A stretch of DNA of 43,585 bases from an uncultured SAR86 cluster bacterium. GTDB lineage: Bacteria > Pseudomonadota > Gammaproteobacteria > Magnimaribacterales > D2472. The notes beneath the pieces are model-generated. The model ran no database searches. It was not told where the DNA came from and worked only from the letters and a program-made list of their open reading frames with translations. The position numbers and the translations under genes are program-made. This document shows, piece after piece, positions 11,980 to 22,594 of the stretch (the first letter of the stretch is position 1; every line of letters starts with the position of its first letter). Location of the stretch: positions 1 to 43,585 of the forward strand of contig CABXPU010000008.1 in assembly GCA_902514105.1 (NCBI GenBank), in the 5' to 3' direction.

Positions 11980-13332
11980 ATGAGCACTAATATTATTAGC
12001 AATAAAATCAGAGCAGCTTATGGAATAGGTGATTATGCTATTTGTCTTTATTGGAGCGGTGTTGGTTTATATTTACTTTATTTTTATACAGATGTTGTAG
12101 GCATTTCACCTTTATTAGCAGGTTGGATTTATGCGTTAGGGATTGCTTGGGATGCTATTACTGATCCATTTATGGGCTATATGGCTGAACGCACTAGAAC
12201 CAAAATGGGCAGTTATCGCCCCTATATTTTTTATGGCTCAATCCCTTTAGCTTTATCCTTCGTATTGCTACTTTGGGTTCCTCCTTTTGAAGGAACATTT
12301 TTATTTGCCTTTTTATTGGCTGTTAATTTAATTCATAGGACTTGTTTCACCATTGTTAGTGTTCCATATTCATCACTAACAGCTAGGATTACTGATGATA
12401 GCGATGAGAGAACAAAATTAACCACTGCTCGAATGTTAGCCGCATCTTTTGGAACTCTAACAGTATCTGCTTTTGGTTTTCCTATTGTGCTTTGGTTTGG
12501 CGGAGGAGAAGAAGCTCTTGGTTTTGTATATCTAGGTTTAGTTGCAGGTCTTACTGCTATTTTTATTCTTAGTATCACAATTTATTTTGTTAAAGAGCGA
12601 AATTTTGAGTTTAATAAATCCCAATTACCCAGTTTTAAAAAGGTATCACAATCAGTTGCAAACAATTATCCTTTTTGGATTGTTTTTGGATCAATACTAA
12701 TTCTAGGATCAACCACCTTGATGTTTAATAATAACTTAATCTACTTTTCTAAATATTATTTGGATCTACATGAATATCAAGGTCTAATTTTAGGCGTTAG
12801 TAGCGGCGTTTCATTTGCAGTTATTCCATTGTGGGCTTTTGCTGCTTTAAAAATAGGTAAGAGAAATGCATGGATGATTTCAATGACTTTCATACTTATC
12901 GGATTTTTAGTATTTTATTTTTACCCCATTAGAACTCTAAATGAATTACTTGTTATTCTTGGTTTAATAGGTATTGGTAATGGGGCAACAGGAGTGCTTT
13001 TTTGGTCTATGCTTCCTGATACTATTGAATATGGCGAATGGAAATCTGGCATAAGAACAGAATCTTCATTGTACGGTTTTATGACCTTTGCTCAAAAAGG
13101 AGCTATAGCCTTTGCTGCTGTTATTTTAGGAATAGCCTTAACAAAAATTGGTTTTGAGCCTAATCAGATTCAAACTCAAGAAACATTAGATGGTTTGAAA
13201 TCTTTAATGACCTGGATACCTCTTGGTGGCGTTTGTATTAGTTTTGCTTTAGTTTATTTTTATCCTATTGATAAAGCTTTTCATAAAAAACTTATTGAAG
13301 AGATTGAAAACAGAAGACTATCAAATGCCTAA
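11980..13332 (+). CDS. MFS/GPH-family sugar:cation symporter
   Basis: 12-TM; 'DAITDPFMGYMAERTRTKMGSYRPYIFYG' and 'FWSMLPDTIEYGEWKSGIRTES' are GPH-family hallmarks. Confidence 0.92.
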   Translation: MSTNIISNKIRAAYGIGDYAICLYWSGVGLYLLYFYTDVVGISPLLAGWIYALGIAWDAITDPFMGYMAERTRTKMGSYRPYIFYGSIPLALSFVLLLWVPPFEGTFLFAFLLAVNLIHRTCFTIVSVPYSSLTARITDDSDERTKLTTARMLAASFGTLTVSAFGFPIVLWFGGGEEALGFVYLGLVAGLTAIFILSITIYFVKERNFEFNKSQLPSFKKVSQSVANNYPFWIVFGSILILGSTTLMFNNNLIYFSKYYLDLHEYQGLILGVSSGVSFAVIPLWAFAALKIGKRNAWMISMTFILIGFLVFYFYPIRTLNELLVILGLIGIGNGATGVLFWSMLPDTIEYGEWKSGIRTESSLYGFMTFAQKGAIAFAAVILGIALTKIGFEPNQIQTQETLDGLKSLMTWIPLGGVCISFALVYFYPIDKAFHKKLIEEIENRRLSNA

Positions 13333-15328
13333 TATTAAGTGGGGTATTATTGGGCCTGGGAATATTGCTAGTGCATTTGCTCACTCAATTGAGCATTGTG
13401 AAAACTCAGATTTAGTAAGTGTCTATGGAAGAGATCAAGAGAAAGTTAATGCTTTTTCCTCAAAGTTTAATATATCTTCTTATACCAATTTTCAAGACTT
13501 TATTGCTTCAAAAGAAATAGACGCTGTCTACATAGCGACACCCCATAGTTCACATTACTTTTATTCAATAGAAGCTATTAAAAGCAAGAAGCATATTTTG
13601 TGTGAAAAACCTTTAACCATGAATCACCTAGAAAGTATGGTTTTATTAAATTTAGCTCAAGAGGCTGATGTTTTTTTGATGGAAGCATATATGTATCGCA
13701 CCCACCCACAGACTGCTAATATTCTTGATAATTTAGATATCTTTAATGACACACAAGATAAAATAATTATTAAAAGCTCTTTTGGGTTTTCTGCAGATTT
13801 ACCAAAAGAACATCGCCTAAGAAATCCATTGTTAGGCGGAGGTGCGATTTTAGATGTTGGATGTTATCCATTGTCTATGAGTAAATTAATAGCAGGAGCT
13901 TTACAAGATTTGCCTTATGCCGATCCTGTTAGTATTAGCGCAACAGGAATACTTGATGAAACGGGTGTTGATCTTCAATCACAAGCGCATCTAATTTTCT
14001 CAGATAAAATAGAAGCAGAAATAAGTTGCGCTATAAATGAAGACTTTGCTAACAATCTAATCATTTTAGCAGGCTCTATTGAATTAATTGTTTCTCAACC
14101 TTGGCATTGCGGCCAATTTCAAGATGGCGCATCCTCTATACAAATCTTTGATTCTGGAAAGTTGGCAAAAGAGATCCCTTACAAAGATTCAATTGGATTA
14201 TTTACAAGAGAAATTGATCATGCTTCTCAGTGCATTCAGGATAAAAAAATTGAATCTGATTTTATTTCTCATACGGATACTCAAAGTAATATGCTGTGGC
14301 TTGATCAATGGAGAAGAGAGTTAGGCATAGGATGCCCTTTAAATAACCTTAAGGAATCTCCAATACCAGAGTCACAATTCTTTCATATACAAGAACCTCA
14401 ACTTGAAAATAATACATTAGAAGATATTGGGAAAGATGCTTCAAGATTAGCCTTTGGTTGTGATAATCAAACATCAAGCCTGCATGCATTTACTATGTTT
14501 GATCATTTTTATGGTGCAGGAGGAAGAATTTTTGATACTGCTTATATATACAACAATGGGAAAGGTGATAAATATTTAGGAGACTGGATTAATTCACGTC
14601 AATTTGAAGATAAGATTATTGTTCTTGGTAAAGGCGCCCATACCCCAGAATGCGAACCTAAATTTATTAGACCTCAAATTATAGAATCCCTTGAACGTTT
14701 AAATATTCAGAAGTTAGATATTTTTTGTCTTCACAGAGATAATCCAGCAGTCCCTGTAGCAGAATTTGTTGATGCTTTAAATGAGATAAAAGATGAAGGC
14801 TTAATAAATTTAATAGGTGCATCTAATTGGGGATTAGAGCGTTTTTCTGAAGCTCAAGATTATGCACAAGTATCTAAAAGGGAAGCTTTTAAAGTTTTAA
14901 GCAATAATTTTAGTTTAGCTGAAATGATTGATCCGGTTTGGCCAGGATGTGTTGGCGTTAATCATGAATATATTAATTACTTAATTGAAAATAAGATTAT
15001 GCTATTCCCTTGGTCAAGTCAGGCAAGAGGGTTTTTTATTAAGAAAAAAGAAGTTACCTCTAATGAGCATTTTTCCAACCCTTCTTTAGAAGAAGAAAAA
15101 AGAGTTTGGCATGATGAAAGAAACCTAAAGAGAAGGGCGAAATGTTTTGAAATGGCTAAGCAAAAAAATGTAGAGCCGATTCAAATTGCACTTGCTTATG
15201 TTCTGCATAAATCTTCACTGATTTTTCCATTAATAGGTCCCAGAACTATCTTTGAAACTAATAGCTCAATTAAAGCAACCCAAATTCTTTTAAGTGATGA
15301 AGAGATGAAAGAATTGGCTATAGATTGA
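13325..15328 (+). CDS. Bifunctional Gfo/Idh/MocA-type oxidoreductase fused to aldo/keto reductase
   Basis: N-half 'WGIIGPGNIASAFA...ILCEKPLTMN...GGGAILDVGCYPLSM'; C-half 'FDTAYIYNNGKGDKYLG...IIVLGKGAH...DIFCLHRDNP...IGASNW'. One uninterrupted frame. Confidence 0.9.
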   Translation: MPNIKWGIIGPGNIASAFAHSIEHCENSDLVSVYGRDQEKVNAFSSKFNISSYTNFQDFIASKEIDAVYIATPHSSHYFYSIEAIKSKKHILCEKPLTMNHLESMVLLNLAQEADVFLMEAYMYRTHPQTANILDNLDIFNDTQDKIIIKSSFGFSADLPKEHRLRNPLLGGGAILDVGCYPLSMSKLIAGALQDLPYADPVSISATGILDETGVDLQSQAHLIFSDKIEAEISCAINEDFANNLIILAGSIELIVSQPWHCGQFQDGASSIQIFDSGKLAKEIPYKDSIGLFTREIDHASQCIQDKKIESDFISHTDTQSNMLWLDQWRRELGIGCPLNNLKESPIPESQFFHIQEPQLENNTLEDIGKDASRLAFGCDNQTSSLHAFTMFDHFYGAGGRIFDTAYIYNNGKGDKYLGDWINSRQFEDKIIVLGKGAHTPECEPKFIRPQIIESLERLNIQKLDIFCLHRDNPAVPVAEFVDALNEIKDEGLINLIGASNWGLERFSEAQDYAQVSKREAFKVLSNNFSLAEMIDPVWPGCVGVNHEYINYLIENKIMLFPWSSQARGFFIKKKEVTSNEHFSNPSLEEEKRVWHDERNLKRRAKCFEMAKQKNVEPIQIALAYVLHKSSLIFPLIGPRTIFETNSSIKATQILLSDEEMKELAID

Positions 15329-17753
15329 TTTCTATTTGAAGATGAATATCTTCAGCTGAAGAACCAATCATGATTTCATAGGATCCTGGCTTCACTTCCC
15401 ATTCTTTTTTGTCGGTATTCCAATATGAGAAATTCCTATGATTTAGAGAAATTTGTATTTGGCTATCTTCATCTGGAGCAAGGAATGTTTTGTCAAAACC
15501 TTGCAAAGTTTTTAAAGGCTCCTCTTCTGTAGCGCCCTTATAAGCAACGTAACATTGAGCAGTTTCTGCTCCAGAACAATCTCCATTATTTTGAACATTG
15601 AATGTGCATAAAATATCATCATTATCTTGCTGAACCTTAAGATTGGAATACGTAAATTTTGTATAAGAAAGACCATAGCCAAAAGGGAATAGTGTCTTAA
15701 TATTTTGTTTGTCATACCACTTATAACCCACTAGAAGTTTTTCTTCGTATTCCATTTGCAGGTCTTTTCCTGGGTAGCATTTATATGCTGGAGTATCTTC
15801 TAGATTAATAGGAAAGGAGGTGGGTAATTTACCCGATGGATTGATTGCTCCAGTCATAAGATCAACCAAGGCGTTACCAAACTCTTGTCCTGCAAACCAG
15901 GTTTGGATTATTGCATCTGCTTTATCAACCCACGGCATTTTTACAGGCGAGCCAGTATTTAGAACAACTATAGTATTTGGATTAGCTTTTAAAACTTCTT
16001 CAATTAAATGGTTTTGATTGGCTGGTAAATTGAAGTCACTTCTATCATTACCTTCAGTTTCCCAATCAGAATTAGTGCCAACAATTAACACCACTTGATC
16101 AGATTCATTAGCAGCATTTATCGCTTCATCAAAAAGGTTTACTTTATCTGGAGGCTGGCAGCCAATGTATATTGCAGGGAAGTTTCCTTCAAATTTATAT
16201 TTAACCTCTATGAGGTAGGTTTCTCCTTCTTTAAACTCCACTGAGCCTTTTCTAGAATCCGAGCTAAATGAAAAGAAGGCTTCTCCGGGACTAGTTTCTG
16301 TCCAATTATCTATAAGTTCTTCGCCATCAATAAAAAGACGAGATTGACCAATACCAAATATTTCAAATTCATGTTGACCAGAAATATCAGGTGTATAGTT
16401 GCAAGAAAATCTTACAGAAATATCTGGTCTTTCTAGTTGCGATATTACATCTTTCGCAAAACCTTCAAATACCCAAAACTTACTGCCTTTTAAATACTCT
16501 TTAGCCAATAGATTTTTATCAAATTCAGAGCCTTGAAAATATTCAACCAAGAATCCTTCATCACCATTTAACTCTTTCTCCATAAGGCTTTCATCAATCT
16601 TGGGCAAGAATTTATGGGTATGACAACCTTTCGCATATGAAATATCTATATCGTCTCCCAATCTATCTTCGAAGGCTGCAAGAGGATGGATCTGATAATG
16701 AGGCTTTAGGCTTGCACTTCCACCACCAATTATTTGAGCTTCTTTTGCATTAGGACCAATAATTGCGAGTTTTTTTAGATCTGATTTTAAAGGAAGTAGA
16801 TCATTATTCTTAAGTAACACCATCCCATCTGCGGCAGACTTTCTCAGCAAATCTCTTCTTGGTTGAGTGTCATGACTTTCTTCAGGTTTAATCCCTGGGT
16901 TTTCAAATCTTTTGGAGAATTTTGCAATATTTAATATTCTTCTTACTTTGTCGCTAATTAAACTTTCTTTTACCTTTCCTTCTTTAACTAGGGCGAGTAA
17001 ATTCTCTCCCCAATTTCTAGCAGGCCCAGGCATTTCAAGATCTAGACCGCCCGTTGCATTTTCTTCTACTTCTAAAGCAGCACCCCAATCGCTCACAACA
17101 TAACCGTCAAAACCCCATTCATCTTTTAATATATCTATAAGTAATTCTTTATGAGAGCTGCAATAAATATTATTTAATTTGTTATAGGCGCTCATAACCA
17201 CTTGAGCATTTCCCTCTTTAACTCCCATTTCAAATGGAAGCAAATATATTTCTCTTAAGCTTCTTTCATCGATATTCGAGCTTACAAGATGTCTTTCAAA
17301 CTCAGTATCATTGCCAATAAAATGCTTTAAACATGCTGCAACATTTTGCGATTGGACACCTTTTACATATTCAGTAGCAATTTTCCCTGAAAGAAAAGGA
17401 TCTTCTGAGAAACTCTCAAAATGTCTGCCACCCAAAGGATGTCTGTGGATATTAATAGTGGGACCAAGAAGAACATCAACATCTTTTATTTTAGCTTCTT
17501 CCCCCAGTGCAATACCTAATTCATTTATAAGATCCATATCCCAAGTAGAACCAATTGAAATAGCGCAAGGAAAACAAGCTGAAGATTTCCCTGAGTTTGA
17601 ATCACCCCTTACTCCATTGGGCCCATCAGACATCTTAATACTAGGGATATCTAATCTATCAATTTTGTTTGTATACCAAGAATTAAATCCACTTAGAAGA
17701 ATAATTTTTTCTTCCAAAGTAAGATCTTCAATAAGTTTATCTATATTAGGCAT
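15318..17753 (-). CDS. GH3 family beta-glucosidase with PA14 insertion
   Basis: 'KMSDGPNGVRG', 'GGRHFESFSEDPFLSG', 'GYVVSDWGAA', PA14-like 'EYFQGSEFD...SRLFIDGEELIDNW', fibronectin-like C-terminus; no signal peptide. Confidence 0.93.
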   Translation of the reverse strand: MPNIDKLIEDLTLEEKIILLSGFNSWYTNKIDRLDIPSIKMSDGPNGVRGDSNSGKSSACFPCAISIGSTWDMDLINELGIALGEEAKIKDVDVLLGPTINIHRHPLGGRHFESFSEDPFLSGKIATEYVKGVQSQNVAACLKHFIGNDTEFERHLVSSNIDERSLREIYLLPFEMGVKEGNAQVVMSAYNKLNNIYCSSHKELLIDILKDEWGFDGYVVSDWGAALEVEENATGGLDLEMPGPARNWGENLLALVKEGKVKESLISDKVRRILNIAKFSKRFENPGIKPEESHDTQPRRDLLRKSAADGMVLLKNNDLLPLKSDLKKLAIIGPNAKEAQIIGGGSASLKPHYQIHPLAAFEDRLGDDIDISYAKGCHTHKFLPKIDESLMEKELNGDEGFLVEYFQGSEFDKNLLAKEYLKGSKFWVFEGFAKDVISQLERPDISVRFSCNYTPDISGQHEFEIFGIGQSRLFIDGEELIDNWTETSPGEAFFSFSSDSRKGSVEFKEGETYLIEVKYKFEGNFPAIYIGCQPPDKVNLFDEAINAANESDQVVLIVGTNSDWETEGNDRSDFNLPANQNHLIEEVLKANPNTIVVLNTGSPVKMPWVDKADAIIQTWFAGQEFGNALVDLMTGAINPSGKLPTSFPINLEDTPAYKCYPGKDLQMEYEEKLLVGYKWYDKQNIKTLFPFGYGLSYTKFTYSNLKVQQDNDDILCTFNVQNNGDCSGAETAQCYVAYKGATEEEPLKTLQGFDKTFLAPDEDSQIQISLNHRNFSYWNTDKKEWEVKPGSYEIMIGSSAEDIHLQIEINL

Positions 17754-17832: not shown

Positions 17833-19521
17833 ATGTTGAGATTTTTACTTTTTTTATTTACATCTTTCTCTTTGCTTTCTTTGGCAGAAGATAGAATTAT
17901 TATTCCAAAAGATCTTGTTACTTTAGATTCAGATTATCCCAATGCAACTGCCGTCTTAATTAGAGACGATAGAATCCATGCAGTTGGAGCTAAAGAAGAT
18001 TTAATAAAAGAATTCCCTAATACTCCAGTTGATTCCACGCATAAGAACGATGTACTTATCCCAGGATTTATAGAGCATCATATTCATCCATTACTAGCTG
18101 CAATTACTATGAATTCTGAAATAGTTGCCATTGATGATTGGACAGTTCTAAATAAAAAAAGCACTGGCATTAGAGACAGGGAGGGCTATCTAAAGAAACT
18201 TAAAGAACTTGAATCTAGCATGAATACAAATGATCCTTTAATAAGCTGGGGATTTCATCATTATTTTCATGGCAAGTTAACCAAAGATGATTTAGATAAA
18301 ATTTCATCAGATAGACCTATCTTAATTATTCATAGATCTTTCCACGAATTTATTATGAACTCTAAGGCTTTAGAATTTTTTGGAATAGCTAAAGAAGATT
18401 TAAAGGGTTTAAATGCTGAAGAGAAAAAATTAGCCAATTATGAAGAAGGCCATTTCTCAGAGAGAGGTTTGATAATGGTTATGCCCAAGATTATGCAATT
18501 TCTTGCTGCACCTCAAAGAATAATAGGAGGTCTATCTATAACAGAAGAGTATATTCATAAACAAGGAATAACTTTAATTGCTAATCCTGGCGCCATGTAT
18601 AACAAATTAACTCAAGGTGCTAAAAATTATGTATTTGGTGATACAGACACTCCTTTTAGGTCATTATTTATTCCAAGCGCCTTATATATGCTTGAGCATT
18701 TTAATAATTCTGAGTTATTAGAAGAAACAGAAGCACTTTTAAATTGGGGTGAGGGCAAGGTTCAGTACCTTCCAAAACATATAAAGCTCTTTTCTGACGG
18801 TGCTATGTATTCTCAGAATATGGTTTTGAGAGATGGTTATCTAGATGGACATCAAGGCGTCTGGTTAATGGAAGAAGATATATTTAAAGAAACTTTTAGA
18901 ATTTATTGGGATGCGGGATATCAGATCCATATTCATCAAAATGGCGACTCTGGCTTGGACAGAATATTAGAAGTTCTAGAAGAAAATATGGCTCGAAACC
19001 CCCGTGATGATCATAGAACAACCATTGTTCATTTTGGCTATTCAGCATTTGATCAAATTGAAAAGATGAAACAATTAGGAGTTATTGTTAGTGCAAACCC
19101 TTATTATGTTCCAGTTTTATCAGATTTATATAGCAAAGTTGGTATTGGTTATGCAAGATCTCAAGAAATGGTTCGATTGGGAGATGTAGCTAGAGCAAAT
19201 ATTAAATTATCGCTCCATTCAGACATGCCAATGGCACCAGCATCACCTTTAGCTTTAATACATGCAGCGGTTAATCGTATTAATTATGCCAACGAGGTAG
19301 CTGGACCAAATCAAAGAATTTCTTCACTTAATGCTCTAAAAGGAGTTACCTTGAATGCTGCATATGTATTAGGGCTAGAATCAGATTATGGCTCAATAAG
19401 TCCAGGAAAATATGCGAATTTTACTCTTCTAGAGGATAACCCATTAACAGTAGATCATTTATTGATTAAGGATATTAAAGTTAAAGGTACTATTGTTGAG
19501 GGTAAGTTATTTGGGTTTTAG
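17833..19521 (+). CDS. Amidohydrolase family 3 (YtcJ-like) protein, exported
   Basis: Signal peptide MLRFLLFLFTSFSLLSLA; 'PGFIEHHIHP', 'IHQNGDSGLDRILE', 'HSDMPMAPASPL', 'GSISPGKYANFTLLEDNPL'. Confidence 0.88.
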   Translation: MLRFLLFLFTSFSLLSLAEDRIIIPKDLVTLDSDYPNATAVLIRDDRIHAVGAKEDLIKEFPNTPVDSTHKNDVLIPGFIEHHIHPLLAAITMNSEIVAIDDWTVLNKKSTGIRDREGYLKKLKELESSMNTNDPLISWGFHHYFHGKLTKDDLDKISSDRPILIIHRSFHEFIMNSKALEFFGIAKEDLKGLNAEEKKLANYEEGHFSERGLIMVMPKIMQFLAAPQRIIGGLSITEEYIHKQGITLIANPGAMYNKLTQGAKNYVFGDTDTPFRSLFIPSALYMLEHFNNSELLEETEALLNWGEGKVQYLPKHIKLFSDGAMYSQNMVLRDGYLDGHQGVWLMEEDIFKETFRIYWDAGYQIHIHQNGDSGLDRILEVLEENMARNPRDDHRTTIVHFGYSAFDQIEKMKQLGVIVSANPYYVPVLSDLYSKVGIGYARSQEMVRLGDVARANIKLSLHSDMPMAPASPLALIHAAVNRINYANEVAGPNQRISSLNALKGVTLNAAYVLGLESDYGSISPGKYANFTLLEDNPLTVDHLLIKDIKVKGTIVEGKLFGF

Positions 19522-19690
19522 GAAGAATTTCCTTTAGATTCAAGAAATAACATACTTATTAATATGTTTTCAAACCTTGCATTATGTGTTTTTTCCCTAT
19601 AAATTCTTATATATGAATTATTTATATTTAGGGCAATTCCTATAAGTATAAATAATAATAATTTAATTAATTCATATATGGGGGAATATT

Positions 19691-22594
19691 ATGAGTTCAA
19701 GTATTTATAAAAAATTATTAGGATTTTCTTTTCTAATTCTTATCACTTCAAGCTTTAGTGCTAATATTATCGCAGCAGAATCTGATGCTGCAGTTTTAGA
19801 AGAGATTGTTGTTACATCTCAAAGAACAGAGCAAAGTCTTCAAGATGTGCCTATAGCTGTTACAGCTTTAACGCCACAAATGCTAGAAGACCAACAAATT
19901 GAGGATGGTTCAGACCTTCAATTAGTTACGCCAAGTTTAAGTTTCCAAGGCTCTGACTCAGGTGGTGGATCTTTTAATATTAGAGGTATAACAAATTTAG
20001 CTGTTTCTGCTACTGCTGAAAGTGGAGTTGAAACACACATAAATGATTTACCTGTTGGTTCTTACACTATGCAAGATGGTGAATTTTTTGATATGGAGCG
20101 TATTGAGGTTTTAAGAGGACCTCAAGGTACTTTATATGGAAAGAATTCAGTGGGTGGAGCTATCAACTTAATTACTGCCAGACCGGTACTCGGAGAAACT
20201 CTAGCAAGCGTTAAAGTAGAGACAGGTAGTTACAATCTTAGAAAACTTAAAACTATGGTCAATTTCCCTCTTGGCGATAAAGTTGGAGTTAGATTAGCTA
20301 CTTCTAGTACTACTCGTGATGGAGATATTAAGAATATTTATTCTAAGTCAACAGTTAGTCATATCAATAATAGAGACAACGAAGCATGGAGATTTACAAT
20401 TGCTTGGGATGTAAATGATGATACTGATATTACTTTTGTTCATGATGCATACGATGAAGATTCAATGCGTCATTATGTAAATAATGCCTATTGTCAAAGA
20501 GACCCATCTTTAGTATTTGGTTGTACACCAGGCGGAGCATTAGTTCATGAGTTAACTCATCCAATGGCTACTTATGTTGAAAACTTAGCTATTTTGACAG
20601 GTATCTTAGATTTTACTCCAGTGACAGATATGTCAGGAGCTCCACAGGGCTTTTGGGAAGCTAACGTTAGAGGATTACCTCGCTACATAGTTGATTCAGA
20701 TATTTCTCAATTAATTATTAACCATAAGGTTAATGATAATTGGGATGCTACTGTTTCAATGATGAGAAAAGATAGAATGTACCAGAGAACTGGTACTTAT
20801 GTTTCTGAAGAAATGGATAAGTTACGTTTTAAAGATAACCCATATTTCCCAGGTGGTTATGTGCCAATGAGTGGATACGGACCAGAATGTAATATTGATG
20901 ATGGAACTTTTGGTGTCTATGGCGGATGTATTACAGATGTTATGAATTATCCAGATGGATTTGATAGACAATATAATCCAGCTACAGAAAGAGAAGTATA
21001 CGAAGCAAGAATGCAATCTAGTTTTGATGGCGATATGAACTTCTTATTTGGTGCTATCCATACTGTAGGCAGAGGTCTTAGTATTTATGATATTGCTGCT
21101 AACGGTTTAGATGCTTTAGCATTAGTTCCTCCTACATTGTTAACAGGCTTTCCTCAAGGAGCTGTGCAGTTATATGCCCCGCTGTATAGATCTAGTACTA
21201 TTTCAGCGAATAGAAGTAACGCACTATTTGGAGAAGTTTATTATCAAGCATCAGAAACAACTAAATACACTGTTGGTTTAAGACATACTCAAGATTATAA
21301 GGAGCAATATGGAAGGTCTCCATTCTTAAGTCAGCCTGGGTTTGGTAGTGCTGGCGGAGGTTTTACTCCATTACCAGGTACCTCTTTGCCTGAATTTGGT
21401 GATTCTTGGTATGGTGCTGGTGCTGTTGGTGATCCTGAAGTTAGTTATGAAAATACCACAGGAAGATTTGTGGTTGATCATATATTAAATGACACCACTA
21501 TGGTTTATGCGAGCATTTCACAAGGATTTAAAGGCGGTGGATTTAACCCTCCATTAGACCCTGCTAAATATCCTGATACTCCTCAAGTATTCCCTTCAAC
21601 AGACTTGAAAGCGCTTGAATTTGGTATTAAAACAGACTTCCCTGAAAAAGGAATGAGATTAAATGCATCTGCATATATTTATGATGCAGCTGATTATCAG
21701 GTTACAAAAATTATAGCTAAAACAAGAGTTAACGAAGGTGTTGATGTAACAATGAGCGGTGTTGAAGCTGAATTCTTATGGATTCCGCCTTCAGCTCCAA
21801 ATTGGAAAATCAATGCTGGAATAAGTTATGAAAATTCAGAAGTGGCTGACGGAACTTTCTTACTAAACCCAGTTAATGCCGATCTATGTTTAACTACTGG
21901 ATGTGGCGACTGGCATATGATGAAAGACGCAGCTGACTCTGAAGTCTTTGTCGTAAGAAAAGATGTTGCTGCTGCAATTTTCCAAACATGGTTAGCAGGC
22001 GGATGGGCCCCATATGGATTACAAGATGGAATTATTATTCCTGCTGAATTCCACGGGGACAGATCATCAGGTCTTCCTACTCCAGTTAGTTTCCTTCAAA
22101 CTGGTTTAGTCCCAGGTCACTTGCCATCGCTCGCGGTAAGATCATATTATGAACAATATATGGTACCTGCTGTTTGTGCATTGTTAGGATGTAATCCAGC
22201 TGATGTTATTAGCGACGGTTTACTTTCAGATATTAGTGGAAACCAACTTACTCATCCTGAATTAATGGCTAATGTTGGTGTTCAATACACATTAAATACA
22301 TCTGATTACAATATAGATTTCAGACTAGATGCATATACTCAAGGTGAGAGATATACATCTTTATTTAATCTTGAATTTGATAAAGTTGAATCATGGACTG
22401 AATTGAATGCTCAAATTTCAATCACTCCTGTAAGCGAAGACTCAAATTGGCGTATAGATATATATGGCCAAAATATTACTGATGAAGTTAATGTTATGCA
22501 CGTAGGTGAAGCAACAGCTCCATTAGGCTTTAGTAAAGGCATCTGGGCTAGGCCTCAGGCTACATACGGTATGCGCCTTTCATATAATTTCTAA
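19691..22594 (+). CDS. TonB-dependent receptor
   Basis: 'LEEIVVTSQRTEQSLQDVPIAVTAL' plug, 'RIEVLRGPQGTLYGKNSVGGAINLITARP', terminal aromatic 'MRLSYNF'. Confidence 0.95.
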   Translation: MSSSIYKKLLGFSFLILITSSFSANIIAAESDAAVLEEIVVTSQRTEQSLQDVPIAVTALTPQMLEDQQIEDGSDLQLVTPSLSFQGSDSGGGSFNIRGITNLAVSATAESGVETHINDLPVGSYTMQDGEFFDMERIEVLRGPQGTLYGKNSVGGAINLITARPVLGETLASVKVETGSYNLRKLKTMVNFPLGDKVGVRLATSSTTRDGDIKNIYSKSTVSHINNRDNEAWRFTIAWDVNDDTDITFVHDAYDEDSMRHYVNNAYCQRDPSLVFGCTPGGALVHELTHPMATYVENLAILTGILDFTPVTDMSGAPQGFWEANVRGLPRYIVDSDISQLIINHKVNDNWDATVSMMRKDRMYQRTGTYVSEEMDKLRFKDNPYFPGGYVPMSGYGPECNIDDGTFGVYGGCITDVMNYPDGFDRQYNPATEREVYEARMQSSFDGDMNFLFGAIHTVGRGLSIYDIAANGLDALALVPPTLLTGFPQGAVQLYAPLYRSSTISANRSNALFGEVYYQASETTKYTVGLRHTQDYKEQYGRSPFLSQPGFGSAGGGFTPLPGTSLPEFGDSWYGAGAVGDPEVSYENTTGRFVVDHILNDTTMVYASISQGFKGGGFNPPLDPAKYPDTPQVFPSTDLKALEFGIKTDFPEKGMRLNASAYIYDAADYQVTKIIAKTRVNEGVDVTMSGVEAEFLWIPPSAPNWKINAGISYENSEVADGTFLLNPVNADLCLTTGCGDWHMMKDAADSEVFVVRKDVAAAIFQTWLAGGWAPYGLQDGIIIPAEFHGDRSSGLPTPVSFLQTGLVPGHLPSLAVRSYYEQYMVPAVCALLGCNPADVISDGLLSDISGNQLTHPELMANVGVQYTLNTSDYNIDFRLDAYTQGERYTSLFNLEFDKVESWTELNAQISITPVSEDSNWRIDIYGQNITDEVNVMHVGEATAPLGFSKGIWARPQATYGMRLSYNF

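Follow-up and report, generated by a model that had tools for sequence, protein, structure and literature searches.

A fusion of a Gfo/Idh/MocA oxidoreductase and an aldo/keto reductase in SAR86 bacteria and its relatives in other phyla

SAR86 bacteria are among the most abundant bacteria of the surface ocean (PMC11582366), and their use of sugars is poorly defined. In the window, that is, the whole stretch of 43,585 nucleotides analyzed here from an uncultured SAR86 cluster bacterium, two redox folds stand in one frame between a putative sugar importer and a glycoside hydrolase. The locus raises the question of whether the two are truly fused with both active sites intact, how widely the fusion is distributed and what such a protein would do with an imported sugar. 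An importer, a bifunctional redox enzyme and a GH3 hydrolase would form a concrete module of sugar use in these bacteria. The genome carrying the window amounts to 956 kb in 54 contigs, is 68% complete and has SAR86 cluster bacteria as its nearest relatives.

One frame with two catalytic halves

Positions 13325..15328 of the forward strand constitute one unbroken frame from ATG to TGA, encoding 667 amino acids. An alternative in-frame start (TTG) exists at 13268, but the alignments of most homologs begin at the position of the ATG. The Pfam search placed the Rossmann domain PF01408 at residues 4–121 (E 5.7e-25) and PF22725, the GFO C-terminal domain, at residues 150–241 (E 1.5e-5, slightly below its curated cut-off), followed by PF00248 at residues 381–664 (E 5.4e-45). 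The scores of PF01408 and PF00248 (88.8 and 154.1 bits, respectively, each against a curated cut-off of 24) assign the protein to both the Gfo/Idh/MocA family and the aldo/keto reductases. The preliminary description had proposed a single-chain protein of this composition, and the presence of PF01408 and PF00248 in one open frame confirms that the gene encodes a true fusion of two unrelated redox enzymes.

The GFO half extends approximately over residues 1–340 (13325..14344, forward strand) and the AKR half approximately over residues 367–667 (14423..15325, same strand). Between them lies a junction of about residues 341–366 (14345..14422, forward strand), variable in sequence and predicted to be ordered. 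In the GFO half, the lysine of the EKP motif is K95, and the downstream catalytic residues of the Gfo/Idh/MocA family are D177 and Y181. The Asp-Tyr-Lys-His tetrad of the AKR half (D404, Y409, K436, and H470) aligns in position with those of IolS and DepB. The motifs first read from the letters of the DNA, that is, CEKPL with K95, DTAYIYNNG with D404 and Y409, VLGKGAH with K436 and CLHRDNP with H470, are all in place. A residue census covered 84 distinct fused sequences, and all 84 have K95, D177, and Y181 as well as D404, Y409, K436, and H470. The earlier claim that catalytic residues are kept in both halves is upheld, and the alignments give good support for two intact active sites.

Conservation is distributed over both halves. 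At least 97% conservation was found at 120 positions of the query; the GFO half accounts for 51 of them and the AKR half for 69, and no column of the junction (341–364) reaches this level. The pairwise distances of the GFO halves correlate with those of the AKR halves (r = 0.98), as expected if the halves have been inherited together. The AlphaFold model of the fused protein, based on a 25-row alignment, has a mean pLDDT of 91.5 and a pTM of 0.91. The junction is predicted as ordered (pLDDT blocks of about 89–95), and only residues 575–584 drop below a pLDDT of 50. No PDB chain listed by the fold and sequence searches spans both halves.

Each half has single-domain counterparts. Dimeric dihydrodiol dehydrogenase, the KijD10 3-ketoreductase, the Caulobacter aldose-aldose oxidoreductase, and glucose-fructose oxidoreductase have the fold of the GFO half with the catalytic lysine and tyrosine at the same positions, but they are approximately 20–23% identical to it in the fold alignment. 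IolS, DepB, and perakine reductase share the fold and the catalytic tetrad of the AKR half, whereas the fused family differs from them in its HRDN and SQARGFF motifs.

It could be argued that just one half works as an enzyme, with the other as a passenger in a structural or regulatory role, as there are AKR folds without enzymatic activity, like the potassium channel beta subunit, which is found among the weak matches of the fusion. However, the catalytic sets of both halves are invariant across phyla and the tetrad is also kept, with few exceptions, in the unfused AKRs, which makes a passenger half very improbable.

Distribution and origin of the fusion

Full-length fusions, counted where a single uninterrupted frame matched 612 or more of the 667 residues, were found in about 96 of the 203 genomes of the SAR86 order. 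The remaining genomes yielded fragments, matches to a single domain, or nothing, and the two halves were not seen as separate intact genes in any of the 203. Full-length relatives outside SAR86 show about 36–40% identity and are located in Kribbella, Streptomyces, Pseudonocardia, Mesorhizobium, Thermosporothrix, Thermoflexales, Planctomycetota, Lentisphaerae, and one Pseudomonadales genome; Chloroflexota as well as Planctomycetota are represented. The plasmid records with a match covering 80% or more of the query number 193 and are almost all rhizobial, and 45 out of 59 relatives of one Kribbella genome carry the fusion. Judged by this distribution, the fusion is an old, widespread, and conserved family, and the idea of a local oddity was not borne out.

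In a single SAR86 assembly (FRAM18_bin311; L071/G083), the symporter, the fusion, the GH3 gene, and their neighbors are all in pieces. Because the neighboring genes are broken too, indels of assembly or sequencing are the likely cause rather than gene decay. This is the sole split case in SAR86, and it speaks against the view that an error in sequencing or annotation joined two separate genes in the window. The same single frame appears in the independent assemblies of about 96 SAR86 genomes and of other phyla, so that such an artifact has a negligible probability. Chance read-through or mis-assembly is excluded, because the unbroken two-domain frame recurs in independent genomes.

The rhizobial proteins WP_011427608.1 (Rhizobium etli p42b) and WP_011649798.1 (pRL9) are typical fused relatives, recorded as "aldo/keto reductase" and consisting of about 660–680 amino acids. 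Domain order, length, and catalytic residues are the same as in SAR86, with about 38% identity over the full length.

In order to find unfused relatives, the AKR half alone was searched in 251 genomes from the phylum to which Thermosporothrix belongs and in 246 from that of a planctomycete. Identity to this query is 48–100% in fused proteins and mostly 30–51% in unfused AKRs. A clear GFO gene is located near 9 of the 34 fetched unfused AKR loci (raw count, flank of about 1.5 kb). In six of these nine (L141, L180, L181, L182, L183, and L184), the GFO gene immediately precedes the AKR gene on its strand, as in the fusion, with a gap of a few bases or an overlap in some cases. Quick trees of each half, built without an inferred root, place the fused sequences together in a single group, both for the AKR half (SH-aLRT 100) and for the GFO half (SH-aLRT 93); in the GFO tree, the outsiders have long branches. 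The simplest account consistent with these data would be one fusion event of a GFO-AKR gene pair, which later spread.

Both folds and the redox conversion of sugars are well known, and public databases contain many fused sequences. In the records examined, the annotation of the fusion, where given, is nearly always plain "aldo/keto reductase," and many proteins with just this label could be re-annotated. No paper on a GFO-AKR fusion was found in the open-licence literature, where names written with slashes, like "Gfo/Idh/MocA" and "aldo/keto," may have escaped the search, and the passages found in the SAR86 isolate paper do not mention the gene. The family is real, conserved, and apparently uncharacterized. 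The copies on rhizobial plasmids are open to knock-out in culturable strains, and a function found there could be transferred to the ocean bacterium.

Genomic neighborhoods

In the window, a GPH-family sugar:cation symporter (11980..13332, forward strand; PF13347, E 4e-89, with TIGR00792 above its cut-off) is located directly upstream, and its last 8 bases are also the first 8 of the fusion gene. Downstream, a convergent GH3 glycoside hydrolase with a PA14 domain (15318..17753, reverse strand; Pfam and NCBIfam) overlaps the fusion by 11 bases. The nearest model for this GH3 is a beta-D-glucosidase, with a score under the cut-off of that model. The placement of the fusion between a GPH importer and a GH3, as initially described, was thereby recovered. 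Immediately beyond the GH3, positions 17833-22594 contain genes for an Amidohydro_3 amidohydrolase and a TonB-dependent receptor of 967 amino acids (Pfam).

Nearly all loci of the nearer SAR86 families that have enough flank retain the order of GPH, fusion, and convergent GH3, and the symporter and the GH3 were found in 48 loci each. In 40 of 47 SAR86 loci, the symporter gene and the fusion gene share 8 or 14 bases at the GPH stop, which suggests translational coupling of the two genes. At the other end, the fusion and the GH3 overlap tail to tail (15318-15328 in the window), and a convergent overlap of 6–44 bases exists in 46 of the 47 SAR86 loci measured. In the deepest of the SAR86 families sampled, six of eight loci have GPH ahead of the fusion. 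A GH3 is also nearby in six of the eight, there at a greater distance and in the same orientation as the fusion, and genes such as those of a pyruvate kinase, a sodium/solute symporter, or a GlcD-like FAD oxidase are found close by.

The high-GC neighborhoods outside SAR86 were read from annotated records and with a gene picker based on codon composition. In rhizobia and Phyllobacterium, the unit consists of a binding protein, two permeases, an ATPase, and the fusion, with a divergent AraC-type regulator, and in several rhizobia the importer and the fusion appear to be the entire transcription unit. The Kribbella unit includes a binding protein, two permeases, and the fusion. The sugar-import context proposed in the preliminary description is therefore found again, the sugar importer being a GPH symporter in SAR86 and of the ABC type in rhizobia and Kribbella. 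Unlike SAR86, the rhizobial fusions have the ABC importer in place of the symporter and no adjoining GH3. As the GH3 neighbor was observed in SAR86 only, hydrolysis would not be a general part of the system, and the importer is, by the loci compared, the more widely shared partner.

Planctomycetota and Thermosporothrix show mixed neighbors and no consistent importer. In one Planctomycetota genome (L069:6382-8554), genes for a ThuA-domain protein and a GH32-like protein come after the fusion. A TIM-barrel gene is located beside the fusion in Thermoflexales (L077:4700-5971, xylose-isomerase-like by Pfam) and, as annotated, in two Phyllobacterium plasmids (L112:11039-11812 and L114:11036-11806), where it may possibly add a step to the pathway.

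Proposed function and alternatives

The reading that we tentatively prefer, at slightly less than even chances, is a bifunctional carbohydrate oxidoreductase in which each half performs one hydride transfer on the same compound. A sugar or glycoside would be imported by the GPH symporter in SAR86 and by an ABC importer elsewhere, and in SAR86 the neighboring GH3 would probably trim it. The GFO half, of the aldose-dehydrogenase or ketoreductase type, would carry out one hydride transfer through K95, D177, and Y181, and the AKR half would carry out another on the compound used by the GFO half, through D404, Y409, K436, and H470. With the cofactor recycled between the halves, an unusable sugar might be turned into a usable isomer or epimer.

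This bifunctional reading draws on the invariant residues (84/84), the correlated distances of the halves, the ordered junction, and the pTM of the model. It is further based on the importer directly upstream in SAR86, rhizobia, and Kribbella, on the unfused AKR relatives that are directly preceded by an unfused GFO gene, and on the alignment of the GFO half with the NADP-binding dihydrodiol dehydrogenase, KijD10, and aldose-aldose oxidoreductase. The mixed neighborhoods of Planctomycetota and Thermosporothrix argue against it, and the conserved importer is no proof of a substrate common to both halves. Both halves probably use NADP(H), as indicated by aligned residues and by what is known of the families. 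In the alignment with dihydrodiol dehydrogenase, R36 stands opposite an arginine known as a ligand of the 2′-phosphate, and R640 falls in the part of the AKR half where the cofactor motif is located.

We infer a shared imported-sugar substrate, opposite directions of the two halves, and a redox-neutral outcome. The preliminary interpretation is thus supported in part; the two sequential redox steps on one sugar and the epimerization by an internal hydride shuttle that it envisaged are hypothetical. That one half oxidizes while the other reduces is somewhat the better bet, mainly because the importer and the fusion seem to stand alone in some loci. A stricter form of this, a self-contained sugar isomerase or epimerase, is rather unlikely. 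One half would oxidize the sugar, the other would reduce the intermediate, and NADP(H) would be recycled within one rigid protein, so that importer and fusion would be the whole catabolic module. If true, this module would be common to marine SAR86 and soil bacteria.

Two redox steps that do not balance are nearly as likely as the redox-neutral reading, with roughly one chance in three on our estimate. Both halves might oxidize, both might reduce, or they might act on successive intermediates with other enzymes between, and the fusion would just co-deliver two steps of one catabolic route. The invariant residues and the operon pairing fit such steps equally well, and the relatives of the GFO half include C1 aldose dehydrogenases. 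Room for intermediate steps is offered by the TIM-barrel gene after the fusion in Phyllobacterium and by the GlcD-like FAD oxidase in the deepest SAR86 family. On the contrary, the operons of Rhizobium and Kribbella contain the importer and the fusion with no other obvious enzymes.

A more specific route is known for levoglucosan. In Bacillus smithii, an established pathway of four enzymes (LgdA, LgdB1, LgdB2, and LgdC) has GFO enzymes at both ends, with oxidation by a GFO enzyme and a later reduction that regenerates the cofactor, as would be the case here (PMC7676230). The Lgd enzymes are separate proteins, however, the final reductase is a GFO enzyme and not an AKR, and the pathway needs lyase/hydratase partners, which are rarely found in SAR86 (PMC7676230 for the pathway). 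By analogy, the GFO half would oxidize C3 of a glycoside, separate TIM-barrel enzymes of the lyase/hydratase type would cleave it, and the AKR half would reduce the 3-keto sugar. This precedent and the TIM-barrel genes beside the fusion in Phyllobacterium and Thermoflexales favor such a route, but it is improbable. Tyr181 is found in the GFO half in all 84 sequences, and levoglucosan dehydrogenase and inositol dehydrogenase have His at this position. As for the cleaving partner, no PF01261 lyase/hydratase was detected in the 68% complete genome of the window. Proteins with PF01261 are present in only 20 of 202 SAR86 genomes, and this scarcity disfavors a levoglucosan-type pathway as the function in SAR86.
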